From the NCBI RefSeq assembly GCF_026013545.1, contig NZ_JAPDOG010000006.1, forward strand, positions 124,001 to 188,000: a DNA stretch of 64,000 bases, read 5' to 3'. Source of the DNA: Defluviimonas salinarum. GTDB lineage: Bacteria > Pseudomonadota > Alphaproteobacteria > Rhodobacterales > Rhodobacteraceae. This document shows, piece by piece, positions 9,410 through 60,259 of the stretch; within the stretch, counting starts at the first letter, position 1; each line of letters opens with the position of its first letter. The notes beneath the pieces are model-generated. The model made no database searches. It was not told the DNA's origin and saw only the letters and a list, made by a program, of their open reading frames with translations. Made by a program: the position numbers and the translations under genes.

Positions 9410-10488
9410 CGGTTGGCCGAGAAGGTGAAGAGCGACTGGACCGCGAACATCACCCGGTCGAGCAGGAAGCCGATGATGCCGATGGTGAAGACCGCGACCA
9501 TGATCCGGGCGAGCGAGGCGGAGGAGCCGTTCTGAAACTCGTCCCAGACGAACTTGCCCAGCCCGGGGTTCTGCGCCAGCATCTCCGCCGCGATCAGCAC
9601 CATCCAGCCGACGCCGAGCGAGAGCCGGAGCCCGGTGAAGATCAACGGCAGCGCCGAGGGCAGCACGAGCTTGGTGATCTTGGCCCAGGTGCCCATCTTC
9701 AGCACCTTCGAGACATTGACGAGGTCCTTGTCGATCGAGGCCACCCCGAGCGCGGTGTTGATCAGCGTCGGCCAGAGCGAGCAGAGCGTGACCGTGATCG
9801 CCGAGACGAGGAACGACTTGGCGAAGAACCCGTCATTCGTCGCCATGAGCGCCGAGATGACCATGGTCACGATCGGCAGCCAGGCGAGCGGCGAGACCGG
9901 CTTGAAGATCTGCACGATCGGGTTGATCGCGGCGTTCGCGGCGGGCGAGAGGCCCGCGAGGATGCCCAGGGGGATCGCCACGAGCGAGGCGAGGAGGAAG
10001 CCGAAGAACACGGTCCGGATCGAGGTGCCGATCTGGTCGTAGTAGGACGGCGCGCCGGTATAGGCCATCTGCTTGACCTCCTCCGCGCGGCCCGCCGCGA
10101 CGAGCTTCGCGTTGCGCTCTGCAAGCAGTTCGGTGAACTTGGCCTCCTTGGCGGCCTTGTCCACGGCATCGGCGTGGAGGTTCACTGCCTCCGACCAGAC
10201 CTCGGCCGGTCCCGGGATCGCGCCGAGCGAGGTCTCGACCTTGGGCGCGAGCACCGCCCAGAGCGCCAGGAAACCGGCGATGGCGAGCACGGGCACGCCG
10301 AGCAGTTTCCAGACCTCCCTGACTTGGGCGTGGGGATTGTCGCCGGCCGCGGCCCTGAGGATCGGGGTGATCCAGGCGAGCCCCAGCACACGGAACCAGG
10401 CGTCCGCCTTGTTGATCCGGGTGAAGAGCCGGGCGCGGCGTGCCTCTCGGTTGGCGTTTCTGGCGAAATCGGGATCGGCGATGGTCAT
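9406..10488 (-). CDS. nrtB: nitrate ABC transporter permease
   Basis: 360 residues. It has a first membrane helix near residues 65-85, a periplasmic stretch, then a BPD_transp_1 domain (about 170-350) with five to six helices and the EAA-like loop near ALPLIFTGLR. Longer than many SsuC/TauC permeases because of the N-terminal helix and loop, as usual for NrtB of proteobacteria. It lies between nrtA and the fused ATPase on the minus strand and overlaps the ATPase gene by 4 bp. Confidence 0.92.
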   Translation of the reverse strand: MTIADPDFARNANREARRARLFTRINKADAWFRVLGLAWITPILRAAAGDNPHAQVREVWKLLGVPVLAIAGFLALWAVLAPKVETSLGAIPGPAEVWSEAVNLHADAVDKAAKEAKFTELLAERNAKLVAAGRAEEVKQMAYTGAPSYYDQIGTSIRTVFFGFLLASLVAIPLGILAGLSPAANAAINPIVQIFKPVSPLAWLPIVTMVISALMATNDGFFAKSFLVSAITVTLCSLWPTLINTALGVASIDKDLVNVSKVLKMGTWAKITKLVLPSALPLIFTGLRLSLGVGWMVLIAAEMLAQNPGLGKFVWDEFQNGSSASLARIMVAVFTIGIIGFLLDRVMFAVQSLFTFSANR

Positions 10489-10547
10489 GTCTCGGTCCTC
10501 GTTGTCTCGAATCCCAGAGGCATGGCGCCCCCGGAAAGGATGTCGGG

Positions 10548-11915
10548 TCAGCCCTGGATCTCGGTGCCCACGACCGTCTGTCCGCCCTTCAGCCCGATCG
10601 GCAGGCTGTCGATGTAGGCGTTGGGCTTGCGGCCGTCGAAGCCGAAGCCGTCGATCACGTCGCTGGCGGGGGTGGCGGGGCGGTAGCCGTCGCTGTCCCA
10701 GGGGAAATCGGCCGCGTCGGCGAGCCCCTCCTCGACCAGCATCCGAGCGGCCTTGAGGTAGATCTCGGGCTTGTAGACCGAGCGCGCGACCTCGTCGTAC
10801 CAGCTGTCGGGCCTGGCCTCGGCGATCTGGCCCCAGCGGCGCATTTGGGTCAGGTACCAGACCGCGTCAGAGTAGAAGGGATAGGTCGCGTTGTAGCGGA
10901 AGAAAACGTTGAAATCGGGCACCTCGCGGACATCGCCGGGCTCGTATTCGAAGGTTCCGGTCATCGAGTTGTCGATGACGTCGGCATCGGCGCCGACATA
11001 TTCCGGCTTCGACAGGATCTCGACAGCCGCCGCGCGGTTGGCGTTGTCGTTCTCATCGAGCCAGATCGCCGCGCGGATCAGCGCCTTGGTGAGGGCGAGC
11101 GTGGTGTTGGGGTTCGCCTCGACGAACTTTTCGGTCAGGCCGAAGACCTTCTCGGGGTTGTTCCGCCAGATCTCGTAATCCGTGACGACCGGCACGCCGA
11201 TCCCCTTGATCACGGCCTGCTGGTTCCACGGCTCGCCCACCGCGTAGCCGTTGATCGTGCCGGCCTCCAGCGTCGCGGGCATCTGCGGCGGCGGCGTGAC
11301 CGAAAGGAACACGTCGGCGCCGATCTGCCCGGACACGTCGCCCGGCGCGTAGTAGCCGGGATTGAGGCCACCTGCCGCGAGCCAGTAGCGCAGCTCGTAA
11401 TTGTGGGTTGAGACCGGGAAGACCATGCCCATGTTGAAGGGCTTGCCCTCCGATCTGAACGCGTCGACGACCGGCGCCAGCGCCTCGGCCGAGATCGGGT
11501 GCTGCGGCTTGCCGTCGACGCCGGAAGGGACATGCGGCCGCATCGCTTCCCAGACCGCGTTCGAGACCGTGATCCCGTTGCCGTTCAGGTCCATCGAGAA
11601 GGGCGTGACGATATGCGCCTCGGTGCCGTAGCCGATCGTCGCCGCGAGCGGCTGGCCAGCGAGCATGTGCGCCCCGTCGAGCGTGCCGTCGATCACGCCG
11701 TCCAGGAGCACCTTCCAGTTGGCCTGGGCCTCGAGCGTGACGAAGAGGCCCTCGTCGAGGAAATAGCCCTGCTCGTAGGCGACCGCGAGCGGCGCCATGT
11801 CGGTGAGCTTGATGAAGCCGAGGGTCAGCTCGTCCTTTTCGAGCGCGAGCGGTTCGGCGAATGCCGGCGCGAAGAGCATCGTCGTCGCCATCAGGATCGC
11901 GGGGAAAGCCTTCAT
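10548..11915 (-). CDS. nrtA: nitrate ABC transporter substrate-binding protein
   Basis: 455 residues. A Sec signal (about 1-20, ending AFA-E) precedes an NrtA/CmpA-like binding domain ([24 protein letters not shown]). It captures nitrate/nitrite in the periplasm for NrtB/NrtCD. ATG 11915 was chosen for the signal peptide and the GGAAG ribosome site 8-9 bp upstream; an upstream in-frame extension runs through the leader hairpins and is not coding. It is the first structural gene behind the NasT-type leader. A similar protein without a signal peptide (NasS) is encoded just upstream. Confidence 0.93.
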
Positions 11916-11962
11916 CTCATCTTCCTTCGTTCGGCTCCGCGGGACGGCGGAAGCAGGACACC

Positions 11963-12011
11963 AAAAAAGCCGCTGACTCACTCTGCCTGCGGCAGAGGGT
12001 CGAGCGGCTTT
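11963..12011 (-). terminator. intrinsic terminator in the nrtA leader (attenuator)
   Basis: Read on the minus strand, AAAGCCGCT (12011-12003) pairs with AGCGGCTTT (11974-11966), enclosing an inner perfect stem CTCTGCC/GGCAGAG (11997-11981), and is followed by a run of six T (11968-11963). It lies 48 bp upstream of the nrtA ATG. The 5' arm of the outer stem is the loop and 3' arm of the P2 hairpin at 12000-12017, so the two structures exclude each other. Confidence 0.8.
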
Positions 12012-12017
12012 GCTCAA
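12000..12017 (-). promoter_or_regulatory. ANTAR-type hexaloop hairpin P2 (NasT antitermination site)
   Basis: On the minus strand the sequence TTGAGC-AAAGCC-GCTCGA forms a 6-bp stem (one G-U pair) closing a six-base loop with A at position 1 and G at position 4, the bases recognised by ANTAR-domain antiterminators. Formation of this hairpin removes the 5' arm of the terminator at 11963-12011. With nasS/nasT immediately upstream, the reader is almost certainly NasT. Confidence 0.8.
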
Positions 12018-12037
12018 TCACCCGGTCTTTGGGAGAG
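12018..12037 (-). promoter_or_regulatory. candidate ANTAR hairpin P1 upstream of P2
   Basis: On the minus strand CCC/GGG flanked by a U-U mismatch and two further pairs closes a loop AAAGACC, directly 5' of P2. The loop resembles the P2 loop (AAAGCC) with one extra base, so it is seven rather than six bases in this folding. Two-hairpin motifs are the rule for ANTAR targets, hence the proposal, but this one is non-canonical. Confidence 0.5.
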
Positions 12038-12173
12038 GTCCGGCGCCGGACGCCATTGCCCGGCTATGGCACCAGTAAGGCGGTGGGCGCGGGGCTTTGC
12101 AAGGAATGATGCTGCGGATGCATCAAGATTTGCTGCGGCGCGGCAATTCGAGGGCGAACTGCCCGAAAATTCA

Positions 12174-13355
12174 TCACTCGCAGTCGCCGGGATCAAAAAC
12201 CGAGCCGTCGAAGAACCGGTCGGGCCGCAGAATCAGCCGCCCGGCTTCGGACGCCACCGCGAGATCGACCGCGATCGCGCCCTCGACCTTGGCCGAGGCA
12301 GTCGGCAGCGCGGCGCCGGTTCCGGCCATCGCCCGGCGGTATAGGTCGCTGCGGAACACCGCCCGCGCCGCCGCTATCGCCGCGGCTTCGGGCATGCCTG
12401 TCCGCCGCGCCAGCCCTTGCCCGATCCAGGCCGCCTGCGACCTCCAGGGGAAATTGGCGCCGCCCCGATGGAACTCTACGAAGCCGGGGCAGTGCCGCGT
12501 CTCTCCGCGCGCAGACACAACGAACCTGCCGCCGAGCGCGCGGTCGATGATCTCGGGCGCAACGTCGAGATACCTGGCGCGCGACAGGAGCTCGCTCGCC
12601 GCGGTGTGGTTGTCGGGCTCTGCGAGCCAGCGCCCGGCGCGCCAGACCGCGCGGATCAAGCCATCGAGCATGTCGGGCACCTCTTCGCCCCATGTCTCGC
12701 GCACCGCCAGCACCTTCTCCGGCGCGAAGGCCCAGATCGCCGCGCCGGGCAGCAGCAGTTCGCCCGCGCCGCTCTCCACCGCGATCGACCCCCAGGGCTC
12801 GCCGACACAGAAGGCGTCGATGTCCCCGGCGGCGAGCGCCTCGGACATGAGCGGCGGCGGCACCGTCTGGATGGCGATCCGCGACAGGGCTTGCGGGTCG
12901 AGCGCGCCGAGCCAGCGGCCCACCAGTTCGGCATGCATCGAGAACGGGAACGGCACGCCGATCCGCAGCCCCGCCCCAGCGCAGCCGATCAGCGCCCGCC
13001 CCGCCGCCGCGGCATCGGTGAAGCCGAAGTCATGGCCGGCAGCGCGCAACCGACCGGCCAAAGACCGCGACACGCCGGTCACGGTGCCGTTCACCGACAT
13101 CACCATCACCGCCGCCAGCGCGCAAGCCTGGCCGCCAAGCCCGAGCGCCGCCGCGACCGGGACCGGCGCCAGAAGATGCGCGGCCTCGACCTCTCCCATC
13201 GTCAGCCAGTCGCGCGCCACCGACCAGGACGGCGCCCTGCGCAGGTCGAGCGCGACGCCCTCCTCGTCGGCAAAGCCGAGTTCCGCCGCGACGATCAGCG
13301 GCGCTGCATCGACCAAGGGCAGGAACCCCGCCCGCAGCCGCGCCGCGCCGCTCAT
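12174..13355 (-). CDS. nasS: nitrate/nitrite sensor NasS (cytoplasmic NrtA-like protein)
   Basis: 393 residues of the NrtA/CmpA-like periplasmic-binding fold, starting directly with the first strand (RLRAGFLPLVDAAPL) and without a signal peptide, so it should remain in the cytoplasm. In NasS-NasT systems this protein sequesters NasT until nitrate or nitrite binds. Its ATG at 13355 overlaps the nasT stop (ATGA). The gap to nrtA (11916-12173) holds the leader hairpins. Distinguished from a true transport receptor by the missing signal peptide and the ANTAR partner. Confidence 0.9.
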   Translation of the reverse strand: MSGAARLRAGFLPLVDAAPLIVAAELGFADEEGVALDLRRAPSWSVARDWLTMGEVEAAHLLAPVPVAAALGLGGQACALAAVMVMSVNGTVTGVSRSLAGRLRAAGHDFGFTDAAAAGRALIGCAGAGLRIGVPFPFSMHAELVGRWLGALDPQALSRIAIQTVPPPLMSEALAAGDIDAFCVGEPWGSIAVESGAGELLLPGAAIWAFAPEKVLAVRETWGEEVPDMLDGLIRAVWRAGRWLAEPDNHTAASELLSRARYLDVAPEIIDRALGGRFVVSARGETRHCPGFVEFHRGGANFPWRSQAAWIGQGLARRTGMPEAAAIAAARAVFRSDLYRRAMAGTGAALPTASAKVEGAIAVDLAVASEAGRLILRPDRFFDGSVFDPGDCE

Positions 13356-13936
13356 GACAGGAGCTCCGACGCGGTGACGATGGCGGCCGCGACCTCGGCG
13401 AGCTTGCGGCCCTGGTCCATCGCCGCCTTGCGCAGGAGCGCGTAGGCCGCTGCCTCGTCGATCCCGCGCGCCTTCATCACGATGCCCTTGGCGCGGTCGA
13501 TCGTCTTGCGCTCCTCCAGCGCGCGGCGGGTCGCAGCCAGTTCGGTGCGCATGCGCTGAACCATGTGGAACCGCGCGACGGCGGCATCGAGGATCGGCCG
13601 CAGCCTGTCCTTCTGCAACCCGCCAACGACATAGGCCGACATGCCCGCCTCGATCGCGGCGCGGGTGAGCTGATGGTCGCTGCGGTCGACGAACATCGCC
13701 ACCGGCCGCTCCAGCGGCCCGGTCGCCAGCGCCAGCTCCTCGAGCGCATCGCGGGACGGGTCGGCGAGGTCGATCAGGACGATATCGGGTCGCTGCTCGG
13801 CGACCTTGCGCGCCAGCGCGGTCTCTTCGGCAATGATGTGGATGCGGTGATCGCCGAGGTCGAGAAGACCGTCGACGATCATCCGGGCCCGGTCAGGATC
13901 CCTCTCCACCACGACGATCTTAAGCCGCTCGCTCAT
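13352..13936 (-). CDS. nasT: ANTAR-domain antiterminator NasT
   Basis: 194 residues: an N-terminal receiver-like domain (about 1-120, IVVVERD...VLIDLADPS) and a C-terminal three-helix ANTAR domain (about 130-190) with the typical ..ERKTIDRAKGIVMK.. and AAYALLRKAAMDQG segments. It binds dual-hairpin leader RNA to prevent termination ahead of nrtA and is held inactive by NasS. ATG 13936 was chosen because the receiver strand follows directly; a longer in-frame start at 14038 adds a low-complexity Arg/Gly/Pro leader unlike the family. Confidence 0.92.
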   Translation of the reverse strand: MSERLKIVVVERDPDRARMIVDGLLDLGDHRIHIIAEETALARKVAEQRPDIVLIDLADPSRDALEELALATGPLERPVAMFVDRSDHQLTRAAIEAGMSAYVVGGLQKDRLRPILDAAVARFHMVQRMRTELAATRRALEERKTIDRAKGIVMKARGIDEAAAYALLRKAAMDQGRKLAEVAAAIVTASELLS

Positions 13937-14108
13937 GGGCCGATGTAGCGACGTTCCCGGCGGGTGGGAAATACCCCCGTCGCTCCGGCCGGCCGGTTCG
14001 CGCCTGCGCGATGATTTCCTGTGCGCCCCGGCCGCCAATGCCTGTTTTCTACGCGCGCTCCGGACGGCCCGGCCGTTGGCGACGACCGGGCGATACCAGC
14101 AAGTTCCG

Positions 14109-48736: not shown

Positions 48737-49135
48737 TCACCCCCATTGCTCGACAAGCGCGCGCAGGACGTCGGCGCGGCTGACCTGCCCGACCAGCCGC
48801 CCCTCCGACAGGACCGGAAAGCGCCGGTAGACGCTGCCAAGAAAGGCCTCCGCCGCCGCGACGATATCCATGTTCGCGTCGAGCGTCTCGACGTCGCGGT
48901 TCATGTAGTCGCGCACGCAGTCGCCCCACTCCTGATAGTAGGACGCATTCAGCGCCGCCCGCAGACAGTCCTTCTTCGACAGAACCCCGACAAGCTGGCC
49001 CGCCGCATCGACCACGGGCGCCCCCGAGATGCGCCGGTCGAGCAGTATCCTCAGCGCATGGTTGATCTCCATGTCCGGGGTCAGCGTGATCAGCTCACGC
49101 GCCATGCAGTCGGCGACCTTGGGGCGGTCAGTCAT
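48737..49135 (-). CDS. two-CBS-domain protein linked to the NQR operon
   Basis: 132 residues forming one CBS pair (Bateman module): VADCMARELITLTPDMEIN.. then VRDYMNRDVETLDANMD... CBS pairs bind adenine nucleotides or SAM. Its start lies 8 bp inside nqrM, so it is translated with the NQR genes and could regulate or report on them. ATG 49135; a longer in-frame version has no family sequence. The exact ligand is unknown. Confidence 0.82.
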   Translation of the reverse strand: MTDRPKVADCMARELITLTPDMEINHALRILLDRRISGAPVVDAAGQLVGVLSKKDCLRAALNASYYQEWGDCVRDYMNRDVETLDANMDIVAAAEAFLGSVYRRFPVLSEGRLVGQVSRADVLRALVEQWG

Positions 49136-49298
49136 CGCGGCCCCCTTCCCCGCCCCCGCATCCGGCGCAGGCTGCACCCTTGAGGCAGGCGACACCGCCG
49201 CAGGATCCCTTGAGCGGGCGGCGCCCGGCGAGGATCCCGACCGCGAGGCCGGCCTGGACGAGAAGCAGGATCGCGAGGGTCAGAAGGAAGGTCGCCAT
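49128..49298 (-). CDS. nqrM: NQR maturation protein NqrM
   Basis: 56 residues, below usual ORF cut-offs. One N-terminal membrane helix (about 3-22), then the NqrM signature GSCGG (C33) with further Cys38, Cys44 and Cys47. NqrM delivers iron to the NqrD/NqrE cluster. ATG 49298; 37 bp downstream of nqrF and overlapping the CBS gene. Its presence identifies the complex as NQR rather than Rnf. Confidence 0.88.
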   Translation of the reverse strand: MATFLLTLAILLLVQAGLAVGILAGRRPLKGSCGGVACLKGAACAGCGGGEGGRDD

Positions 49299-49335
49299 GT
49301 CATCTCTCCGTAAGGGTCAGGGGCGGTTCCATCGC

Positions 49336-50556
49336 TCAGGCTCCGAAATCGTCGTTGAAGATGGCACTGTCCTCCACGCCCGCATCGGCGAGCATCGCGA
49401 GCACCGCCTTGATCATCAGCGGCGGGCCGCAAAGGTAGTATTCGCAGTCCTCCGGCGCGGGGTGATCCTTCAGCAGCCGCTCCTCGACGACATTGTGGAC
49501 AAAGCCGGTGGCGCCCTGCCAGCCATCCTCCGGGCGCGGGTCGGACAGCGCGACCGTCCAGCGGAAATTGGCGTGCCTTTCGGCCAGCGCGTCGAACTCC
49601 TCGGCGTAGAACAGTTCGCCCCGGTTCCGCGCGCCGTACCAGAAGCTCATCCGCCGCTGCGTCCCCAACCGTTCCAGCTGGTCGAGGATGATCGCGCGCA
49701 AGGGCGCCATGCCGACCCCGCCGCCGATGAAGACCATCTCGCGATCGCTCTCCTGAGCGCGGAAGCTGCCGAAGGGACCGGCGATCTCGATCCGGTCGCC
49801 CGGCTTCACCGAGAAGAGGTAGGAGGACACCTTTCCCGGCGGCGCCTCCGGCTCATGCGGCGGCGGCAGCGCGAGGCGGATGTTGAAGACGACGCGCCCC
49901 GCCTCGCTGTCCTCAAGCCGGTTGGAGATCGAATAGGCCCGCATCTCGCTCTGCCGGCTCTCGGAGACGAGCGGACGGACCGCCCGCCAGGTCCGCTCGT
50001 GCTCCGCCGGCACGTCGAGCGCGTCGAACTGTAGCCGGTAGGGCGGCGCGGTGATCTGGAAGAAGCTCCCCGCAGGCAGCGCCGGCCGGGCGTCCTTGGG
50101 CAGCGCGATCACGAGTTCCCGGATGAACGGCGCGAGGAAGCGGGCGGAGTGCACCGTGCAGTCGAGGCTTTCGGCGCCGATCAGGCTCTCCGGCAGCTCC
50201 ACCGCGACATCGCCGCGCAAGGTCACCTGGCAGGCCAGCCGCATCCCCTGCGCCAGCTCCGCCCGGCTCAGCCGCGCGGTCTCGGTCGGCAGCACCGTCC
50301 CGCCGCCCCCGGTCACCGTCACCCGGCAAAGCCCGCAGGTCCCGGCCCCGGCACAGGCCGAGGGCACGAGGATCCCGGCCTGCCCAAGCGCCGAGAGCAG
50401 CTTGTCGCCGGTCATGGCGGCGACGTTCTCGCGCCCATTGACGGTGATCGAGACCGGCTTCGCGGGCAGGAGCACCCGCCGCGCGGCCGTGACGACCGCC
50501 GTGAGGACAAGGACGATCGCGGTCAGGAGCATGCTGCCAAGGACGATCTCGGTCAT
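49336..50556 (-). CDS. nqrF: Na+-translocating NADH:quinone reductase subunit F
   Basis: 406 residues. N-terminal membrane helix (about 5-25), ferredoxin [2Fe-2S] domain with C68, C74, C77 and C109, then FAD-binding (RAYSISN) and NADH-binding (GGGVGMAPL.., LCGPP) domains. It takes electrons from NADH into the complex. The ATG at 50556 overlaps the nqrE stop. Confidence 0.95.
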
Positions 50557-51155
50557 GGCCCGCCCGCCCCCGCCAGCGCCGAGACCCCCAGGGACATGAG
50601 CCCGGTCACGAGAAAGGCGCTGCCAAGCCCCTGCAGCCCCGCCGGCATGTCGCTGTAGCGCAGCCGCTCGCGGATCGCGGCGAAGGTCACGATCGCAAGC
50701 GCCCAGCCGACGCCGCTGCCGAAGCCGTAGACGACCGCCTCCGCGAAATCGTACCTGCGCTCGACCATGAAAAGACTGCCGCCGAGGATCGCGCAGTTCA
50801 CCGTGATCAGCGGCAGGAAGATCCCGAGCGCGCGGTACAGCAGCGGCGCGAAGCGGTCGAGCGTCATTTCAAGCACCTGCACCGAGGCCGCGATCACGCC
50901 GATGAAGGTCACGAGCTTCAGGAACCCCAGATCGACCTCCGGCAGCCCCACCCAGCCCCAGGCGCCTTCGGACAGAAGCTGCGTCTGGATCAGGTTGTTC
51001 AGGGGCACCGTGATCGTCTGCACCACGATGACCGCAAGCCCCAGCCCCGCCGCCGTCTCCACCCGCTTCGACACCGCAAGGAAGGTGCAGATGCCGAGAA
51101 AGAACGACAGCGCGAGGTTCTCCTCGAAGATCGCCCTGAAGAGGAGTTCGGTCAT
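50553..51155 (-). CDS. nqrE: NQR subunit E
   Basis: 200 residues, six membrane helices. C23 (GICTFLAVS) and C120 (VNCAILGG) are the intramembrane [2Fe-2S] ligands shared with NqrD. ATG 51155 overlaps the nqrD stop. Confidence 0.95.
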
Positions 51156-51805
51156 CGCTCCTCCTCCGCCGCCTCGAGCCGGTAGTCCGGCGCCTCGGCC
51201 TGCGACCGGCGCAGGGCCCGGATCGCCCAGACCAGGAGCCCGAGGATGAAGAACGCCGCCGGCGCCCGCTGCATCAGTGCGAGCGGCTCGAACCAGCCGC
51301 CCTCCGCCACGGTCGCCACGACCGGCCGGCCAAGGAGCGTGCCCGCGCCGAGAAGCTCGCGCAAAGTGCCGACGACGATCAGGACGAGGCTGTAGCCCAG
51401 ACCGTTGCCGAAGGCGTCGGCGAGCGTCGGCAGGACCGGGTTCTTCATCGCGAAGCTCTCGGCCCGGCCAAGGACGAGACAGTTGGTGACGATCAGCCCG
51501 ACGAAGACCGAGAGCCGCCGGCTCATCTCGAACGCGTAGGCGCGCAGGAGCCCGTCGATCACGATGACGAGCGAGGCAATGATCGTGATCTGGACGATCA
51601 GCCGCACCGAATGCGGAATATGCCGGCGGATCAGGCTGATGAAGAGGCCCGAGAGGCACAGCACCACCGTCAGCGCCGCCGCCATCGTCAGCGCCGTGGC
51701 CAGAGTCGTCGTGACCGCGAGCGCCGAACAGATCCCGAGGATCTGCAACGTCACCGGGTTCTCGTCGATCAGCGGTCGGGTCAGGCGGTCGAGGAACGTG
51801 GCCAT
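51152..51805 (-). CDS. nqrD: NQR subunit D
   Basis: 217 residues, six membrane helices. C26 (LGICSALAV) and C109 ([10 protein letters not shown]) match the intramembrane [2Fe-2S] ligands. 1 bp after nqrC. Confidence 0.95.
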
Positions 51806-51806
51806 G

Positions 51807-52607
51807 TCACGAGCCCTCCCGCTTCAGCCGCTCGAGGAACGGCCCGAACCCGTGCGCACCGAGCCAGAAGGCCAGCATGTTGCCGACCCCGGCCCCGGTC
51901 CGGGTCGCGCCCGAGATCCCGTCGACCTCGTAGGGCTCTTTCGCCGGGGTCTGCACCACCCGGATCAGGATGCGCCCCGCCTCTTCCGCGATCCTCCGGC
52001 CGGTCCAGAGCGCCTGCCAGTCCGGCTCCTCGATCCGAGCGCCGAGACCGGGTGTCTCACCCTGCTCGACTATCGTCAGCGCGGCGATGGTGACGAGATC
52101 GGGCTCAAGCGCCAGGTAGGCGCGGATCAGCGACTGGTACCCCACGCCCGAGACCGGCAGCACGACAAGCGCGAGCCGCCCGTCGCGTTCGAGAAGATGG
52201 ACCGGCGCAACGGTGGCGATCCGTTTCAGCCCGGCCGGATCGGCCTCAGGCGGAAGCGCGATGCTGGTCGCGGGATCCTTCGCGGCGGCGACGGGATCAA
52301 AGCCCGCCGGATCGGTGGCGGTCTCGTAGTCGCCGGTCTCCAGCACCACGAGCCGCGTCTCGAGCGCATCGACACCGGCCTCCTCCATCAGCTCGCGCAT
52401 CGCCGGAAGGGCCGCGACCATCGCCGCGAGCCGCGCCTGCCGCTCGCGCTCGACATGCGCGTCCTGCACCGGCTTCAGGAGGACCGAGGCCGAGGAGACG
52501 ACCAGCGCGCAGACGAGCGCGACGAGGAAGGTCACGCCGAAAGCCTTGCGCGGATCGGTGTTCGGCAGGCCGAGGAAGCGCCGCCAGAGACCCATGCGCT
52601 CAGACAT
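51807..52607 (-). CDS. nqrC: NQR subunit C (FMN-binding)
   Basis: 266 residues. N-terminal helix (about 22-45) anchors a periplasmic FMN domain with the SGAT flavinylation site (S232-T235, covalent FMN on T235). Only this subunit of the pair B/C keeps a flavin threonine here. Overlaps nqrB by 8 bp. The flavin-inserting ApbE is not in this window. Confidence 0.93.
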   Translation of the reverse strand: MSERMGLWRRFLGLPNTDPRKAFGVTFLVALVCALVVSSASVLLKPVQDAHVERERQARLAAMVAALPAMRELMEEAGVDALETRLVVLETGDYETATDPAGFDPVAAAKDPATSIALPPEADPAGLKRIATVAPVHLLERDGRLALVVLPVSGVGYQSLIRAYLALEPDLVTIAALTIVEQGETPGLGARIEEPDWQALWTGRRIAEEAGRILIRVVQTPAKEPYEVDGISGATRTGAGVGNMLAFWLGAHGFGPFLERLKREGS

Positions 52608-53376
52608 GCCGCCGCCTCCCGTCCCGGCGCCTGGCCAGGGCGCGGATCACCAGATGGTCGACCAGCGGGGCCGCGAGGCTCGCGAGCAAAGCGGCGAAGA
52701 CGAGCGCGTTGACCGGCCCCATGTCGGCCAGAAGGACCACCAGCCCCCCGGCGATGAGCCCGTGAATCCAGCGCCCGGCCTGCGTCGCCGCCGCCGCGAC
52801 CGGATCGGCGAGCAGGAAGACCGCGCCGAAACAAAGCGACACCGCTAGCGACGGGGCGGGCAAAGCGCCCGAGGCGAGAAGCGTGGCGAGGCAAAGTCCG
52901 AGCGCGAAGCCCGCGAGCAGCCGCCAGAAGACGAGCCCCGCCGCGAAAAGCAGCACCAGGCCGGGGACCGCTGCCGCCGCGACGGCGGGCTCGGCGCCGG
53001 CAAGCCCGGTTCCCGGAAAGGAGAAGGCGAGAAAGGCCAGCGCCGCGACCGCCGGGCTGAGGAACCCGAAGCCGCGTCCGCCGAAGACCTGTTCGCCTAA
53101 GACGACGCCGAAGCTCGCGGCCAGCGCCACCTGCCAGAGCGTCACGTCCGGTGGCACCGCCACCGCGAGGATCAGCCCGGTCGTGACGCTGTGCCAGGCA
53201 ACGGGCGCGGCGCGGGCGCGGGCAAAGACGAGATCCCAGATCAGAGCGGTCAGGAGCGCGACCGCCAGCACCGCCGTCGCTCCAGCCCCCCGTGCGAACA
53301 CCGCCACCGCGACCGGCGGCAGAAGGGCCGCCGCCTGCAGAAGCGTGACGCCCCCCGGAAAAGCGGCGCGGATCAT
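52600..53376 (-). CDS. nqrB: NQR subunit B, short form lacking the FMN site
   Basis: 258 residues against about 410 in Vibrio cholerae. WDLVFARARAAPVAWHSV, VPPDVTLWQVAL, GVVLGEQVFGGRG and LADPVAAAATQAGRWIHG align by memory with conserved NqrB blocks. Missing are roughly the first 100 residues and the segment between the FSFPG-type helix and the next, where DG(F/Y)SGAT would flavinylate Thr. No SGAT or other flavin Thr motif is seen. The gene overlaps nqrA (ATGA) and nqrC, so the shortness is not a sequencing stop. Function as quinone reductase is therefore uncertain. Confidence 0.85.
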   Translation of the reverse strand: MIRAAFPGGVTLLQAAALLPPVAVAVFARGAGATAVLAVALLTALIWDLVFARARAAPVAWHSVTTGLILAVAVPPDVTLWQVALAASFGVVLGEQVFGGRGFGFLSPAVAALAFLAFSFPGTGLAGAEPAVAAAAVPGLVLLFAAGLVFWRLLAGFALGLCLATLLASGALPAPSLAVSLCFGAVFLLADPVAAAATQAGRWIHGLIAGGLVVLLADMGPVNALVFAALLASLAAPLVDHLVIRALARRRDGRRRHV

Positions 53377-54617
53377 GCCGCGCCCTCCATCCGGTCGAGA
53401 ACCCGGCGCAGAAGCCGGCCGTAGTCGCTGCCGCTCGTGCAGAGATGAGTCAGCCGCGCGACATCCTCCTCGACAAGTCCGCGCGCCCCGAGCCGCTCCG
53501 CCGCCTCCACGTCGCCAATCGCGAGCGCGCGCATCAGCGGCACCGGAGGGATCGCGACCGGCAGTGCGGTGTCGAGCGCGGCCCGGGGCAGGATCGGCTT
53601 GGGGCGCGGCTTGCCCCCGGCCGCGAGATGTTTCGCGAGCCGGTCGAAGAGCGATACCCGCCGCACCGGCACCAACGCCGCCTGCGTGTCATAGCGGCCG
53701 AGAAACCGTGCCTCGCGGCCCCCGATCCGGGCGCCGGAGACCAGACGGAAGGCCGCACCCGCATCGCCCGGCAGGTCCGCAAGGTCGCTCAACTCCGCCC
53801 CGAGCAGGGTCGGGAACAGGGCGGCCTCCCCGCGCCCGTCGTGAAACGCGATGACGCGCTGGCCGTGATAACGGCCGGTCCGCGCCAGCTCCCCCATCGC
53901 GACCACGTCCTGCCAGCCGACGGTCCAGACGCTGCCCCCCGGGGCCGGAGCGCCGAGCCGGGCGATGTGATGCGAACTGAGCCCCGCCGCCGCCGGATCG
54001 GGGAAATACACGGTGCAGATGCGCTCGCGGCCGGGCGTCGCGAAGGCCGCGCCCCGGCGCTGGCAGACGAAGACCGCCCCCCCGGTCAGCTCGGCCACCA
54101 TGTCGAGTCCGCGGTCGAAGCCCGGCCCCGCTTCGGCAAGGACCGCCTGCGGATCGGGCGCCCCGTCCCGATCGGGCATCGCGTTGACGAAGATCGCCTC
54201 CGGCACCTCGTCGGGTGCCGGGATGCGCCCGTAGGGCCGCCTGCGGAACGCCGGCCAGAGGCCGCCCGCAAGCAGCGCCGCACGGGCACCCCCAACCCGC
54301 ACTTCCTTAGTCGGAGGATCCCGCTCCGGCGCCGCATCGAGACGCACCACCAGCACCGACAACCTCCGCCCCGCGCCCAGCGCCACGGTTTCGACGATGC
54401 CGGACGCCGGTGCCACGAAGGCGACCTCGGGGTGATGGCGGTCGGTAAACAGCGCCTGCCCGGCCCTGACGCGGTCTCCCTCCGCGACCAGGAGAACGGG
54501 CCGCAGCCCCGGATAATCCGCGCCGACAAGCGCGACACGGTCCGGCCGCCGCAAGGCTCCGACCGGCCCCGCAGCAGGACGGATGCGCCGCTCCCGGATT
54601 GCGTTCAGTCCAATCAT
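53373..54617 (-). CDS. nqrA: NQR subunit A
   Basis: 414 residues against about 446 in Vibrio. The RnfC/NqrA-type barrel (VRAGQALFTDRHHPEVAFVAPASG..) and the C-terminal domain (AERLGARGLVEEDVARLTHLCTSGSDYG) are visible. It is the cytoplasmic subunit linked to quinone binding. ATG 54617 chosen over an in-frame extension to 54776, which reads across the shared promoter. First gene of the operon, divergent from the pentaheme cytochrome gene. Confidence 0.92.
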   Translation of the reverse strand: MIGLNAIRERRIRPAAGPVGALRRPDRVALVGADYPGLRPVLLVAEGDRVRAGQALFTDRHHPEVAFVAPASGIVETVALGAGRRLSVLVVRLDAAPERDPPTKEVRVGGARAALLAGGLWPAFRRRPYGRIPAPDEVPEAIFVNAMPDRDGAPDPQAVLAEAGPGFDRGLDMVAELTGGAVFVCQRRGAAFATPGRERICTVYFPDPAAAGLSSHHIARLGAPAPGGSVWTVGWQDVVAMGELARTGRYHGQRVIAFHDGRGEAALFPTLLGAELSDLADLPGDAGAAFRLVSGARIGGREARFLGRYDTQAALVPVRRVSLFDRLAKHLAAGGKPRPKPILPRAALDTALPVAIPPVPLMRALAIGDVEAAERLGARGLVEEDVARLTHLCTSGSDYGRLLRRVLDRMEGAA

Positions 54618-54671
54618 GTGCGGTCCAGATGGTTTCAGGCACGACCCTCCGACGCATGGCGCCCCTGCGCC

Positions 54672-54685
54672 TTGATCCGTGTCAA
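54672..54685. promoter_or_regulatory. FNR/Crp-type box between nqrA and the cytochrome gene
   Basis: TTGAT-CCGT-GTCAA differs from the FNR consensus (TTGAT-N4-ATCAA) at one base. It lies 55 bp from the nqrA start and 64 bp from the cytochrome start, so it could control both. A Crp/Fnr regulator with the ExxSR recognition helix is encoded at 55856. Confidence 0.65.
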
Positions 54686-54748
54686 CGAGCGCCCGCCGCC
54701 GATCCGGCAACATGGGGCGATCGGCCCGAGCACCGGAGGTTTCCCGAC

Positions 54749-55837
54749 ATGATCCCGTGGCACCTGACGCTGGCATTCACGCTTGTCTTCCTGTCCGGCC
54801 TCGGCGCGACCGCGCCGCTTGCCCAGGAAACGAACCCCGTCCTCCCCGATGTGGTCGAATCCTGGCTCGCCTCTCCCCATGCCGATCTAAGCTCGGAATC
54901 GTTCCGCCACTGGAACGAGGACGGCGCCGTGCCGCCGGGATGCGCCAACTGCCACACCAGCTCCGGGTTCCGCGATTTCCTCGGCGCCGACGGCAGCGAG
55001 GCCGGCGTCGTCGACCACCCCGCGCTGACTGGATCCACCGTCGACTGCGCCGCCTGCCACAACCAGACGGCAACGGCGCTCGACCAGGTGACCTTCCCCT
55101 CCGGCGCGATCACCGAGGGGCTCGGCACGTCCGCCGTCTGCTGGGTCTGCCACCAGGGCCGGCAATCCTCGGTGAGCGTGGAAAGCGCGATCGCCGGGCT
55201 CGACGAGGACGCCGTCTCGCCCGATCTCGGCTTCATCAACGTGCATTACCGCGCCGCAGCCGCGAGCCTGATGGGCGCCGCGGCGCATGGCGGCTACGAG
55301 TACCCCGGCAAGACCTACGCCAGCCGCTTCACCCATGTGCCTGGCTTCGACAACTGCACCGGCTGCCACGATCCCCACACCCTTGCCGTCAGCGCCGAGG
55401 GCTGCGTCGCCTGCCACAAGACCGCCGAGATCGCCGACATCCGCACCCATACCGGCGATTACGACGCCGACGGCGACGCCGCTGAAGGCGCCGCGCACGA
55501 AATCGCGGGGCTGCACGACGCGCTCGGCCGGGCGATCGGCACCTATGCTGCCGAGGTCGCCGGCGCGCCCGTGGTCTACGCGCCCGACAGCTACCCTTAT
55601 TTCTTCGCGGACCTGAACGCCAACGGGCAGCCTGACGGCGACGAGGTCGGCTATCCGAACCGCTACCAGAGCTGGACGCCGCGCCTTCTGAAGGCGGCCT
55701 ACAACTACCAGTTCGTTGCCAAGGATCCCGGCATCCACGCCCACAACCCGGCCTATGCCGCGCAGATCCTGATCGACAGCCTCGAAAGCCTCGGCGCGAA
55801 GGTCGAAACCGCGATCAAGCCCGCGACGCGGCCGTGA
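54749..55837 (+). CDS. periplasmic pentaheme cytochrome c
   Basis: 362 residues. Sec signal about 1-26. Five CxxCH haem motifs: CANCH 65-69, CAACH 100-104, CWVCH 131-135, CTGCH 203-207 and CVACH 219-223. The C-terminal third has no haem and no membrane helix (YPYFFADLNANGQPDGDE..). I know no named family for this layout; it resembles multihaem cytochromes of the cytochrome c3/c7 type only in motif. GGAGG lies 9 bp before ATG 54749. It shares its promoter with nqrA and may exchange electrons with the NQR complex. Confidence 0.8.
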   Translation: MIPWHLTLAFTLVFLSGLGATAPLAQETNPVLPDVVESWLASPHADLSSESFRHWNEDGAVPPGCANCHTSSGFRDFLGADGSEAGVVDHPALTGSTVDCAACHNQTATALDQVTFPSGAITEGLGTSAVCWVCHQGRQSSVSVESAIAGLDEDAVSPDLGFINVHYRAAAASLMGAAAHGGYEYPGKTYASRFTHVPGFDNCTGCHDPHTLAVSAEGCVACHKTAEIADIRTHTGDYDADGDAAEGAAHEIAGLHDALGRAIGTYAAEVAGAPVVYAPDSYPYFFADLNANGQPDGDEVGYPNRYQSWTPRLLKAAYNYQFVAKDPGIHAHNPAYAAQILIDSLESLGAKVETAIKPATRP

Positions 55838-55855: not shown

Positions 55856-56557
55856 TCAGGCGCAGGCGCACAGCTCGGCATCGCCCTCGGCGAGGCACCG
55901 CAGGCAGTATTCATCCCGCACGACCATCGTGTTGGCATCGTCGAGCGCGATCACGTTTTGCGCCCGCAGTTGCGTGATCGACCGGCTCACGGTTTCGGGC
56001 GTGAGCCCAAGATAGTCGGCGATATCGGCGCGGTTCATTGGCAGCCGGATCAGCTGGAGCTCACCGACCGGCTCGCCGATCCGGTCGAGCAGGAGCACGA
56101 GAAACGCCGCGACCTTCTCGCTCGCAAGCCGCCGGCCGAAGATCAGGAAATGATCCTGCAGCATCCGGATCTCGTTGAGCGCAGCCTCCATCAGCCGCGC
56201 GCGCAGTTGCGGGTCCATGCCGGACGGCTCCGAGATGTCGCAGCGGCGCGGCAGCACTTCGACCGGCGTGATCGCGTCGCATTCGGTCGTGTGACGCCCC
56301 TCGCAGGGCAACCCGATCACGTCGCCCGGAAAGCCGAATGCGATGACCTGCCGCCGACCGTCCTTCTGCGTGCGCGTCAGGCGCAGGACGCCCGACTGGA
56401 CCTTGTAGACGAAAGCCGCCCGATCCGATTCGAAGAAGAGATGCTGCCCGGGCGTCAGCCTGCGCGTCACCCCTTCGGCGCCCGCGCTCCGAGCCGGGCG
56501 GCGGCGCTGAACTGACGTCTTTTCCGTGCCGAGATCTGCCGGTGAAATTGCGTACAT
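55856..56557 (-). CDS. Crp/Fnr-family regulator with unusual C-terminal cysteines
   Basis: 233 residues. Cyclic-nucleotide-binding fold (about 30-150) and helix-turn-helix (about 172-203) with E188, S191 and R192, the FNR-type DNA-reading set. The N-terminal four-Cys [4Fe-4S] set of FNR is absent. Instead C218-x2-C221-x8-C230-x-C232 form a cluster at the extreme C-terminus, with C85, C93 and C106 elsewhere. A GGGAGGG ribosome site precedes ATG 56557. It sits next to the cytochrome gene and probably reads the box at 54672. Confidence 0.88.
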   Translation of the reverse strand: MYAISPADLGTEKTSVQRRRPARSAGAEGVTRRLTPGQHLFFESDRAAFVYKVQSGVLRLTRTQKDGRRQVIAFGFPGDVIGLPCEGRHTTECDAITPVEVLPRRCDISEPSGMDPQLRARLMEAALNEIRMLQDHFLIFGRRLASEKVAAFLVLLLDRIGEPVGELQLIRLPMNRADIADYLGLTPETVSRSITQLRAQNVIALDDANTMVVRDEYCLRCLAEGDAELCACA

Positions 56558-56740: not shown

Positions 56741-57487
56741 ATGGTCGAGACGAACATACTCGTGGTCGAGGATGATGCCGGTGTGCGCAAACTTCTGCGC
56801 AGCTGTCTCGAATCCGAAGGCTACACTGTTCAGGAAGCCACCAGTGCAGCCGAGGTTCGCGCGGCCATGTCCCGCATCCGGGTGCATCTCATCACGCTCG
56901 ATCTGAACCTCGACCGGGAAAGCGGCCTCGACATCGCGCAGGAGGTGCGCAAGGCCTCCGACGTTCCGATCATCATGGTGACGGCCAAGGACGATCTCAT
57001 CGACCGCGTCGTCGGGCTCGAGATCGGGGCGGACGACTATGTGTCCAAGCCGTTCCACGTCCGGGAGCTTCTGGCGCGGGTGCACAGCGTGCTCAGGCGC
57101 AGCGGCGAGCGACCGGCAGAACCCGCCAAGGCCGCAGCCAACGCAAGCCGGGAGCTTTGCTTCGCGGGCTTCCGGGCGGTTCCCGACAAGCTCGAACTGA
57201 CCGGTCCCGACGGGCAGATCGTCGATCTGACCGCTGGCGATTACCGGCTCCTGACCGTGTTCCTCGAAAGCCCGCGCCGGGTGCTGTCGCGCGAGCAGAT
57301 CATGGACATCCTGAACGGCCCCGGCTGGTCGCCCTACGACCGGACCATCGACAACCAGGTCGCGCGGCTGCGCAAGAAGATCGAGGCCGAGCCCGGCGCC
57401 CCGAAACTGATCAAGACCGTGCGCGGCGTGGGCTACATCTTCACGCCCGAGGTCACACTAACCGCCGGGGACGCCCGCCCGGCCTGA
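56741..57487 (+). CDS. OmpR-family response regulator
   Basis: 248 residues. Receiver (about 1-115) with EDD at 10-12, phospho-Asp in LITLDLNLD and Lys in VSKPF; winged helix (about 140-240) ending KTVRGVGYIF. Its 3' end overlaps the opposite kinase gene by 30 bp. The pair are opposite in orientation, so a partnership is likely but not shown. Confidence 0.9.
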   Translation: MVETNILVVEDDAGVRKLLRSCLESEGYTVQEATSAAEVRAAMSRIRVHLITLDLNLDRESGLDIAQEVRKASDVPIIMVTAKDDLIDRVVGLEIGADDYVSKPFHVRELLARVHSVLRRSGERPAEPAKAAANASRELCFAGFRAVPDKLELTGPDGQIVDLTAGDYRLLTVFLESPRRVLSREQIMDILNGPGWSPYDRTIDNQVARLRKKIEAEPGAPKLIKTVRGVGYIFTPEVTLTAGDARPA

Positions 57488-59014
57488 CAGCAGCACCCGC
57501 AGGCGGGTCGCCAGCTCCGCCTGGTGGTAGGGCTTCTTCAGGACCGGAAACGGCGGCGCCAGCTCCTTCTGCGGTTGGATGAGATCGCCGGAGAACCCCG
57601 AAGTCAGCAGGATCGCGACGTGCGGCCAGTCCGCGCGGACCCGCAGCGCCAGCTCGGTCCCGTTCATCGCTCCCGGCATCACGATATCGGTGAACAGCGC
57701 GTCGATCGCCGGGTCTCCGGCGAGGATCGCCAGCGCCTCCTCGGCGTCCGCCGCCGCGACCGCGCGATAGCCCATCGCCCGGAGCCGCGCGACCGAGAGC
57801 CGGCGGATGTTCTCGTTGTCCTCGACGACGAGCACGGTCTCGCCCGCGCCCGGCTCGACCACCGGCTTCGGCCGGGGCGCGGGTTCGGCCTCGGGCCGCA
57901 CCGGATCCCGGTCCGCAGGGAAGTAGAGGCTGACCGTCGTGCCAAGCCCGGCCTCGCTGTAGATCGTCGCCCGCCCGCCCGACTGGTTGGCAAAGCCGTA
58001 GACCATCGCCAGCCCCAGCCCCGTGCCGGTCGTCTCCCCCTTGGTGGAGAAGTAGGGCTCGAACGCCCGCCTGAGCACTTCGGGCGGCATGCCCGTGCCA
58101 TTGTCGGTGACCGAAATGCGCACGAACTCCCCCGGCTTGAGACCAACCTCATGCGCGAGGTACTCGTCGTCAATGGCGACCCTGCTCGTCCGGATCACGA
58201 TGTCGCCGCCGTCGGGCATCGCGTCGTTCGCGTTGATCACCAGATTGACGAGCGCGGCCTGCAGTTCGGCCGGATCCGCCTGAACCGCCCACAGGTCGGC
58301 GGCGAGGGCGCAATCCAGCCGGACGTTCGGACCGAGCGTGCGGCGCAGGATCGCCATCGTCGCGCGCACGGCCTCGTTCACGTCCAGCCGCACCGGCTTG
58401 AGATGGCCGCGGCGCCCGAGCGCGCGCAGCCTCTGGATCAGCGAGGATCCGAGCTCGGCGGCGGCGAGCGCATCGCGGATCATTTCCCTGCCGCGCGTGC
58501 CCTCCAGCTGGCCCTCCAGCAGTTCGAGATTGCCGACGATCACCGTCAGGAGGTTGTTGAAGTCATGGGCGACGCCGCCCGTGAGCAAGCCCAGCGCCTC
58601 CATCCGTTGCGCCATGACGAGTGCGGCCTCGGCAGCCTTGCGCCGCGAGATGTCGTGCAGGAGCGCCACGAACAGCACCCTGCCGTCGATCGTGCTCTGA
58701 CCGACCGAAAGGTGCAGCGGAAAGATGCTGCCGTCCCGGCGCAGCCCCTCCACTTCGCGCCCCGTGCCGATGATCCGCGCCTCGCCGGTCCTGAGATAGC
58801 GCTCGATCGCGGTGACATGGCGGAACGCATCGGGGTCCGGGACCAGCATGTCGATGTTCTCGCCGACCATCTCGCCGCTGGAATAGCCAAAGAGACGGCA
58901 GGCCGCGGGATTGACCCGGACCATGCGGCCATCGGTATCCGCGACAACGATCGCATCGACCGCCGCGTCCAGCAGCGAGTCGAGCAGATATGAGCTGCGG
59001 TCGCTTTCAGCCAT
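57458..59014 (-). CDS. hybrid PAS sensor histidine kinase with receiver
   Basis: 518 residues, soluble. PAS (about 10-130), phosphoacceptor box GVAHDFNNLLTVIVGN, ATPase with NLVINANDAMP and DNGTGMP, then a receiver (about 400-510) with ED at 398-399 region and TDIVMPG. This is the FixL-like HWE/HisKA hybrid layout. No transmembrane segment. Converges on the response regulator by 30 bp. Confidence 0.9.
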   Translation of the reverse strand: MAESDRSSYLLDSLLDAAVDAIVVADTDGRMVRVNPAACRLFGYSSGEMVGENIDMLVPDPDAFRHVTAIERYLRTGEARIIGTGREVEGLRRDGSIFPLHLSVGQSTIDGRVLFVALLHDISRRKAAEAALVMAQRMEALGLLTGGVAHDFNNLLTVIVGNLELLEGQLEGTRGREMIRDALAAAELGSSLIQRLRALGRRGHLKPVRLDVNEAVRATMAILRRTLGPNVRLDCALAADLWAVQADPAELQAALVNLVINANDAMPDGGDIVIRTSRVAIDDEYLAHEVGLKPGEFVRISVTDNGTGMPPEVLRRAFEPYFSTKGETTGTGLGLAMVYGFANQSGGRATIYSEAGLGTTVSLYFPADRDPVRPEAEPAPRPKPVVEPGAGETVLVVEDNENIRRLSVARLRAMGYRAVAAADAEEALAILAGDPAIDALFTDIVMPGAMNGTELALRVRADWPHVAILLTSGFSGDLIQPQKELAPPFPVLKKPYHQAELATRLRVLLSGRAGVPGG

Positions 59015-59086: not shown

Positions 59087-60259
59087 TCAGCGCCCGAAAG
59101 GATTCGGCTCGGCAGACCTCCCGCCACCGCGTCCGGTGCCGAGGTCCTGCAGCACGGCCAGGTAGGCCAGAAGATCGGCGAGCGTGATGACGCCGAGAAA
59201 GCGTCCCCGCTCGGCCACGAGGAACTTGCGCCGTCCGGTCGCCGCGACGCGCTTCATCAGCGCCTCGGCCGACAGGTCGGGCGCCACCGTGTTCACGTCA
59301 CTGGCGGCGATGAAGATATCCGCCACCTGCGTGTCGCCCCAGTTGTCGCGGTCGATCCCGTGCAGGAGCGCCGTATCGACATAACCCAGGAGGTGATCGC
59401 CCTCGACCACCGGAACGAAGCTCACCGCGTGGCGCAGCATGATCTTGTCGACCACCGTCGCCAGCGTGTCCTCGGGCGCAGCCGCATGCACCTTATCCGT
59501 CATCAGCCCGCGCACGCTCTTGCCCGAAAGCGAGGTCTTGACCAGCAATTGCTGATAGGTGCCCCGTGCGGCGGAAAGAAGAAAGAGCCCGATCAGAACC
59601 TGCCAGATGCCGCCGACCGTCGCGCCCGAGAAGAGCGAGACGAAACCGAAGCCGATCAGGGCGTAGGCGAAGAGCGACGAGATCACGGAAGCGTTGCGCG
59701 TCGCGCCGATCAGGTCGCCCCGCATCCGCCAAAGGATCGAGCGCAGGATCCTGCCGCCGTCGAGCGGGAAGGCCGGGATCAGGTTGAACAGCGCCAGCAC
59801 GAAGTTGATCAGGGCGATGTATTCGAACACCGCCTGCAGCGGGGCCGAGACCTCCGCCCCCTCCAGTGCCCGATACGCAAGCCATGCGATCGCAGCGAGT
59901 GCCAGGCTCATGATCGGCCCCGCGATGGCGATCCAGAATTCCGAACGCGGGCTTTCCGGCTCCTCGTCCAGTTCCGCGACCCCGCCGAAAACGAATAGTG
60001 TTATTCCCCCGACGCCGAGGCCGAAATGCCGCGCCACGAGCGAATGCGCAAGTTCGTGCAGGATCAGTCCGGCGAACAGCGCAAGCATCGAGATGATCGC
60101 GAGCGCAAGGTAATCCCCCTGGGCGAGCCCCGGCAGGGCCTGCGGGAAATAGCCCGAAGACAAGGTCCATACGATCAGGGCGGCGATCAGGAGCCAGCTC
60201 GGATCGACCTTGATCTGGAAGCCGAAGATGTCGACCAGCTTGACCGCCCTTGCGAACAT
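59087..60259 (-). CDS. site-2 protease family zinc metalloprotease with CBS pair
   Basis: 390 residues. Membrane protease core with HELAHS (zinc, H/E) near residue 68 and the second zinc motif NLIPAFPLDGGR (about 160). About six membrane helices, followed by a C-terminal CBS pair (about 250-375). This is the M50 type III (SpoIVFB-like) family that cleaves within membranes. Target unknown. Confidence 0.9.
   Translation of the reverse strand: MFARAVKLVDIFGFQIKVDPSWLLIAALIVWTLSSGYFPQALPGLAQGDYLALAIISMLALFAGLILHELAHSLVARHFGLGVGGITLFVFGGVAELDEEPESPRSEFWIAIAGPIMSLALAAIAWLAYRALEGAEVSAPLQAVFEYIALINFVLALFNLIPAFPLDGGRILRSILWRMRGDLIGATRNASVISSLFAYALIGFGFVSLFSGATVGGIWQVLIGLFLLSAARGTYQQLLVKTSLSGKSVRGLMTDKVHAAAPEDTLATVVDKIMLRHAVSFVPVVEGDHLLGYVDTALLHGIDRDNWGDTQVADIFIAASDVNTVAPDLSAEALMKRVAATGRRKFLVAERGRFLGVITLADLLAYLAVLQDLGTGRGGGRSAEPNPFGR

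Follow-up and report, generated by a model that had tools for sequence, protein, structure and literature searches.

The stretch of the Defluviimonas salinarum genome considered here, 64,000 nucleotides long and referred to below as the window, carries an operon related to those of the sodium-pumping NADH:quinone oxidoreductase (Na+-NQR) and, divergent from it, the gene of a secreted cytochrome c with five haem-binding CxxCH motifs. This arrangement, with one regulatory box between the two, had been described in an original prediction made from the letters of the sequence alone, and the genes are indeed found where it had placed them. The features concerned are the following (ORF, open reading frame; FMN, flavin mononucleotide; FAD, flavin adenine dinucleotide).

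49128..49298, minus strand: nqrM-like small ORF of 56 amino acids with a Cys-rich C-terminus; Pfam NqrM at 14.1 bits, under the cut-off of 22; a comparable ORF lies downstream in many relatives.
49336..50556, minus strand: nqrF, with FAD/NADH domains and a 2Fe-2S ferredoxin domain; TIGR01941 at 459.6 bits (cut-off 295); cluster Cys kept in relatives.
50553..51155, minus strand: nqrE; TIGR01940 at 292 bits (cut-off 247.6); both 2Fe-2S Cys kept.
51152..51805, minus strand: nqrD; TIGR01939 at 271 bits (cut-off 244.9); both 2Fe-2S Cys kept.
51807..52607, minus strand: nqrC, the periplasmic FMN-binding subunit, with the SGAT Thr235; TIGR01938 at 165 bits (cut-off 144).
52600..53376, minus strand: short nqrB of 258 amino acids, without the FMN segment and the quinone-site residues according to Pfam and the alignments; the predicted fold is still that of NqrB/RnfD.
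53373..54617, minus strand: nqrA of 414 amino acids, starting at 54617 (MIGLNA); Pfam NQRA_N and NQRA_2nd, NCBIfam nqrA models under their cut-offs.
54672..54685, strand unspecified: FNR/FixK-type box TTGATCCGTGTCAA between nqrA and the cytochrome gene, matching TTGAT-N4-ATCAA at 9 of 10 letters.
54749..55837, plus strand: secreted pentahaem cytochrome c of 362 amino acids, containing five CxxCH motifs; its start resembles a signal peptide by eye; remote likeness to NrfA/OcwA.

The minus-strand genes follow each other in the order nqrF, E, D, C, B, A, so that all six subunits NqrA to NqrF are present in one operon. NqrC, NqrD, NqrE and NqrF score above their NCBIfam cut-offs, while NqrA and NqrB score under those of NCBIfam and above those of Pfam. 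The description of the operon as a complete nqrABCDEF-nqrM set thus holds for nqrA to nqrF, but the nqrM-like ORF falls under the Pfam threshold for that family. The short nqrB of the window is the only PF03116 (NqrB/RnfD) gene in the genome.

The absence of the flavin segment from NqrB, also part of the original prediction, was borne out by an alignment of 75 short rows (67 distinct, eight genomes being present twice) with five canonical NqrBs of the same family. The Pfam NqrB match of the window protein covers profile positions 22-132 and resumes at 174, and in the comparison with NqrB from the PDB the stretch containing DGYSGAT is unmatched in register. The Thr of the SGAT motif, to which FMN is covalently bound, is absent from all 75 rows (67 distinct), its column being a gap in the window protein and in every aligned relative. 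The residues of the quinone site are lost as well, a point that the original prediction does not make: of the positions named as quinone or inhibitor residues in PMC4014512 (G140 and G141) and PMC9325719 (E157), G140 and E157 are kept in 0/75 rows and G141 in 7/75. The N-terminal part, represented by 20 columns, has zero columns filled in 55/75 rows and at most 14 in the remaining ones. The short NqrB is nevertheless predicted with a mean pLDDT (predicted local distance difference test) of 92, and its model matches solved NqrB and RnfD chains with template-modelling (TM) scores, normalised by the query, of 0.72-0.79.

NqrC, NqrD, NqrE and NqrF had been said to keep their cofactor ligands, which the relatives confirm for the FMN residue of NqrC and the cluster Cys. 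The FMN Thr of NqrC is kept in 64/66 distinct rows and replaced by Ser in two (L113 and L129), the cluster Cys of NqrD are kept in 66/66 and those of NqrE in 64/64, and the cluster Cys of NqrF in 64/65 or 65/65, the single gap belonging to the broken copy of L045. The likeness to the Na+-NQR of the Vibrio cholerae type therefore lies in the six subunits, the cluster Cys of NqrD, NqrE and NqrF and the FMN residue of NqrC, and the difference in NqrB, which has 258 amino acids in the window instead of about 400-415, lacks the FMN Thr and has its quinone-site residues replaced. As judged from these residues, the electron path seems to have lost its return half and to retain an intact outward half. 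In a tree of NqrF, one branch with a Shimodaira-Hasegawa-like likelihood ratio (SH-aLRT) support of 99 separates the short from the canonical operons (48 vs 17 rows; 16 distinct canonical operons), which is consistent with a single origin of the short-NqrB operons. By its sequence, the short NqrB is a marker of a distinct NQR clade, and the most fitting name for the complex is that of a cytochrome-linked NQR variant, as it lacks two features that define Na+-NQR, the FMN of NqrB and the quinone site.

Co-occurrence of the short NqrB and the pentahaem gene, the check proposed with the original prediction, was assessed by using the two proteins as separate queries against an order-level sample of 292 genomes. 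The NqrB query matches 95 of these, 35 with one uninterrupted match and 60 otherwise; canonical NqrBs matched in split pieces make up almost all of the latter, and G223 has one weak match. The cytochrome query matches 43/292 genomes, among them 34 of the 35 with a short NqrB (32 with an intact gene adjoining nqrA, that is 31 loci plus the window, and 2 with a decayed one) and 0 of the 60 with other NqrB matches. The comparison of 34/35 short-NqrB genomes with 9/257 others gives a Fisher p of 6e-35, and a second Fisher p given with the pairing counts is 2e-5, both uncorrected for kinship. In G023 (L045) the nqr operon and the pentahaem gene are both broken, which is counted as co-decay and speaks for the pairing. 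Frequent short NqrBs without the cytochrome had been named as an observation that would refute the proposed link; such cases prove rare, as among the 35 genomes of the order with a short NqrB one lacks any trace of it and two have decayed copies, and a class-wide sample of 385 genomes adds one more. ORFs with at least three haem motifs are absent from the stretches read around 16 distinct canonical operons (L078 and L186 being the same operon). The pair is found in Paracoccaceae, Roseobacteraceae, Rhizobiaceae (Hoeflea), Devosiaceae and a Granulosicoccus, with Yoonia maricola, Hoeflea alexandrii and Defluviimonas aestuarii among the species that carry it.

Nine genomes of the order hold the cytochrome without any NqrB match, and in all nine its divergent neighbour codes for a ferric-reductase/NADPH-oxidase-like transmembrane flavoprotein (FRD) similar to that of L074. 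The L074 protein (487 amino acids), the only copy scanned, has Ferric_reduct, FAD and NAD domains in Pfam. The same alternative appears among GTDB loci found via the cytochrome, where the best 80 of 514 matches comprise 42 with a divergent nqr operon (including Hoeflea and a Granulosicoccus metagenome-assembled genome (MAG), L132), 27 with an adjoining FRD-type gene (three further loci with such a gene not next to the cytochrome being left out of this count) and 11 with neither, so that in 69/80 an NAD(P)H flavoprotein complex of either kind lies divergent from the cytochrome and next to it. Gemmobacter megaterium (L098) is among the strains with the FRD partner. Regular occurrence of the cytochrome without nqr had likewise been named as a refutation, and taken literally it occurs (9/43 genomes and 38/80 GTDB loci), yet the neighbour is then of the FRD type in 9/9 and 27/38 cases. 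A cytochrome tree was built from 123 labelled loci, of which 115 had an intact five-haem ORF and 101 remained after thinning by similarity. Its 31 FRD rows fall into a single clade (SH-aLRT 99), which speaks against repeated swapping of partners. Two different routes from NAD(P)H to the periplasm thus lie beside the same cytochrome, and this is the main argument for an exit of electrons from NqrC to it. The ferric reductase/NADPH-oxidase-like proteins are a likeness through one clade of relatives, the window having no such gene.

The pair also has a common box, scored as at least 8 of the 10 letters of TTGAT-N4-ATCAA, which is present in 61/69 nqr-cytochrome and 25/34 FRD-cytochrome intergenic regions and in 1/15 distinct canonical nqr operons (represented by 16 rows, one of them a repeat). 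In a generic upstream control 135/414 regions (32.6%) reach 8/10, but the control includes the nqr, FRD and cytochrome promoters themselves, and the comparison therefore rests on the canonical operons and on shuffles. A FixK-like regulator, a response regulator and a PAS kinase adjoin the window genes and recur in other loci; together with a CBS-domain gene they flank the pair as follows.

48737..49195, minus strand: two-CBS-domain protein (Pfam CBS), a recurrent neighbour whose cluster is present in 49/77 NQR-type loci (repeats of eight genomes counted).
55856..56557, minus strand: Crp/Fnr-family regulator; best NCBIfam match FixK, under the cut-off.
56741..57487, plus strand: response regulator with a DNA-binding domain (domain scan).
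57458..59014, minus strand: PAS histidine kinase with a receiver domain (domain scan).

Low-oxygen control of the pair is likely in view of the box and these regulators. Neighbouring genes were clustered over 124 loci (123 and the window stretch, some genomes being repeated), giving 2168 ORFs from a partial calling by base composition. The families found in at least 8 loci include apbE, CBS, an exchanger-like protein, the PAS kinase and regulators, and no reductase was recognised by eye among them, so that a conserved third gene as the electron acceptor was set aside. An apbE-type gene clusters with 51/77 NQR-type loci (repeats counted), and many relatives have a copy in the operon. The D. salinarum genome has a single apbE match, on another contig (region G000:C22:29770-35899) about 3.6 kb beyond a nosZ-type gene, and the NqrC of the window would consequently have to be flavinylated in trans.

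The original prediction proposed that a periplasmic multihaem protein could replace NqrB and quinone as the exit or the entry of electrons. The replacement is supported by the pairing and by the lost NqrB sites, and between the two directions the FRD partner favours exit. It appears probable that this clade, related to Na+-NQR, has turned into an NADH:periplasmic cytochrome oxidoreductase, in which electrons would pass from NADH via NqrF, NqrDE and the FMN of NqrC to the pentahaem protein, with quinone bypassed. The first steps would be those of an ordinary NQR, from NADH to the FAD and 2Fe-2S cluster of NqrF, on to the 2Fe-2S cluster between NqrD and NqrE and to the FMN of NqrC in the periplasm. 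From there the electrons would leave to the secreted cytochrome in place of returning via NqrB to quinone, NqrB presumably being retained as a cofactor-poor membrane scaffold and perhaps as an ion path. The pentahaem protein could reduce a small periplasmic substrate itself, like its relatives of the NrfA/OcwA type, or hand the electrons on, and the pair would be turned on at low oxygen. The sequences themselves show the pairing of the genes, the lost NqrB sites, the retained cluster and FMN residues as far as NqrC, the common box and the alternative partner; the flow of electrons and its direction, ion pumping and the terminal acceptor are inferred from them.

Several observations weigh against this interpretation. 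In G251 the short-NQR operon looks intact, but there is no trace of the cytochrome; in G289 (L041) the nqr operon likewise looks intact, and the pentahaem gene next to it is reduced to its start. The one uninterrupted short-NqrB match outside the order, in G406, has no cytochrome match in its genome, an empty search answer that shows little by itself. The ligands of riboflavin in NqrB are partly kept (T162 in 50/67, D346 in 66/67, N200 in 20/67 and N203 in 26/67 distinct rows), making some redox role of this subunit possible. The GTDB loci, being the best 80 of 514, are biased to close relatives. In 11 of the 80 both partners are missing even though the sequence upstream was covered, and contig ends do not explain this. 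As the FRD rows form one clade, the change of partner is a single event, whose direction depends on the root. Finally, NqrF and the FRD protein share similar NAD/FAD modules (25-33% identity over part of their length); the two partners are therefore unrelated only in their membrane parts, which do differ in kind, with haem-b ferric-reductase helices in the FRD protein and NqrBDE in the other.

For the last step, the alternative is that the pentahaem protein is a shuttle only, with five bis-histidine (bis-His) haems, delivering electrons to the pool of c-type cytochromes or to another reductase. This touches nothing upstream of the cytochrome and is compatible with the oxidoreductase proposed above; we regard it as quite conceivable, if somewhat short of an even chance. 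In 29 aligned proteins, the five CxxCH are accompanied by five further invariant His (H44, H166, H196, H210 and H332), which suffice for five bis-His haems, and a catalytic CxxCK haem is missing, as all five motifs are CxxCH. NrfA proper was rejected, since there is neither a Pfam Cytochrom_C552 match at E 0.001 nor a CxxCK. A role as reductase is suggested by the alignment of all five haem motifs with those of six NrfA rows in the same order (hhalign probability 88, E 3e-6), although the motifs by themselves may account for some of this score. Among PDB sequences, the best match, cytochrome c-552 (3ubr), was obtained in small pieces to which the motifs may likewise contribute (hmmsearch E 2.3e-5), and the top Foldseek match, which is weak, is OcwA (E 0.016, TM 0.42). 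OcwA is described in PMC6703420 as having CxxCH haems with open sites and as reducing nitrite and hydroxylamine. The window cytochrome differs from NrfA at haem 1, with CxxCH in place of CxxCK.

In NrfA, four extra His are haem ligands and one further His belongs to the active site. The five extra His were tentatively paired by spacing with the ligands of NrfA, according to the roles of these residues in the Escherichia coli enzyme. Since hhalign does not place H166 on the active-site His, haem 1 may be either open or bis-His. The shuttle is also disfavoured by the lack of a recognised reductase among the recurrent neighbours and by the distribution of candidate reductases, compared between 41 genomes with an intact pentahaem gene (the broken G023 and G289 being left out) and 39 others picked step-wise. 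napA above its cut-off is present in 4/41 vs 7/39 genomes (p 0.34), and nosZ-type matches above 350 bits, a threshold of our own as zero matches reach the curated cut-off of 625, are present in 12/41 vs 13/39 (p 0.81). With no association in either case, napA and nosZ were rejected as acceptors on this ground. By analogy with NrfA and OcwA, the pentahaem protein may itself be the terminal reductase.

A further possibility is that the acceptor of the complex remains one in the membrane or the cytoplasm, with quinone bound elsewhere or reached via a remaining riboflavin of NqrB, and that the cytochrome is only a co-regulated neighbour in a low-oxygen island. Many short NqrBs retain T162 and D346 of the riboflavin site, the fold of the short NqrB is predicted to be intact, and the CBS, PAS kinase and FixK-like neighbours do resemble low-oxygen genes. 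The uniform loss of the FMN segment, G140 and E157, and the adjoining position of the cytochrome to an NAD(P)H flavoprotein in most of the GTDB loci, make this unlikely. Less likely again is the entry of electrons, in which the pentahaem protein would feed NqrC and the reversed complex would use the ion gradient to reduce NAD+. The cofactor chain is reversible in principle, and the direction had been left undecided in the original prediction. Judged from its domain content, however, the FRD partner has no pump for a reverse flow, NOX-like (NADPH-oxidase-like) proteins of this kind normally export electrons, and low-oxygen control would suit a disposal of NADH. That the operon is a decaying, non-functional remnant of NQR is very improbable, as the broken operon of G023 stands against cluster Cys and an NqrC FMN residue kept over 64-66 distinct sequences and against NqrB losses that are uniform.

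The nearest analogy given in the original prediction was Rnf with MmcA of Methanosarcina acetivorans, where, according to PMC6703419, an Rnf/NQR-type core lies beside a multihaem c-type cytochrome that is the proposed electron exit. It holds for the function only, as the system itself differs: the input of Rnf is ferredoxin, MmcA has seven haems and the window cytochrome five, and the window operon has NqrF and NqrA in place of RnfB and RnfC, which places it outside RNF. The RNF complexes tabulated in PMC12174285 keep their RnfD flavins, unlike the short NqrB. A parallel for the missing flavin Thr is offered by the two-part Nqr/Rnf-like systems of the flavinylation surveys (eLife 2021, PMC8238504; mSystems 2024, PMC11334425), which describe an NqrB/RnfD-like subunit without this residue and propose one-way electron export. 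In those systems the electrons are carried by the NqrB-like protein itself, which forms a fusion with an NAD-binding domain, whereas the window operon codes for all six Nqr subunits and the carriers would be NqrDE. The same flavinylation surveys also describe RnfG fused to multihaem domains. No description of a six-subunit NQR without a quinone site and with a pentahaem partner was found in the literature searched, a search whose coverage did not extend to most subscription papers.

Whether electron flow in NQR and Rnf is coupled to ion pumping through switching in NqrD/E or through events in NqrB is a matter of debate, reviewed in PMC12174285. A clade in which the NqrB flavin and quinone site are missing from 67/67 distinct sequences and the rest is kept makes the question directly testable, and amounts to a natural experiment on the workings of the sodium-pumping NADH dehydrogenase. 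The most far-reaching version, a quinone-independent, ion-pumping NADH reductase whose NqrB has neither covalent flavin nor quinone and whose terminal reductase is an NrfA-type pentahaem enzyme, is doubtful; if true, the NqrF-NqrDE-NqrC half alone could drive ion transport, and a new type of low-oxygen respiratory complex would exist in Alphaproteobacteria and beyond. More generally, the results suggest that respiratory electrons may travel from NADH to the periplasm without involving quinone or the bc1 complex, and they offer a role for a family of unnamed multihaem cytochromes to which a single genome scan gave 514 matches.

Some further arrangements were observed around the relatives. A Na+/H+-exchanger-like gene (L033, 3415-4614, identified by Pfam on the L033 copy) recurs in 31/77 NQR-type loci, repeats counted, and would fit a Na+-handling complex. 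In G406 (L163, 7432-15409), whose genome has no NqrA match (NQRA_2nd), a four-haem gene with doubled CXXCH is separated from nqrB by a single gene, at a distance of about 2 kb, and a CBS gene and, by eye, an ApbE-like gene are located downstream. In G271, about 2.4 kb beyond the nqrF of the short-NQR operon, lies an ORF with 11 haem motifs and a cytochrome c554 domain (L066, 2321-3988). Among the loci with neither partner, the pentahaem gene of a Rhodoplanes piscinae MAG (L140, 9232-12030) stands between a NapC/NirT-type gene before it and a cytochrome b561 gene after it, a layout resembling nrfH-nrfA and possibly representing a third electron donor. L150 and L155 belong to a cytochrome subclade with neither partner, and their neighbours are, by eye, P-type metal ATPase, ApbE-like and PepSY-type flavoreductase ORFs. 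In the window itself, the PAS kinase adjoins an M50 (site-2-protease-like) peptidase with CBS domains (59090-60259), and a region (2328-14038) with a molybdopterin oxidoreductase, a NirB-like nitrite reductase (Pfam), an ANTAR response regulator and, between them, ABC-transporter-like ORFs recognised by eye looks like nitrate assimilation.

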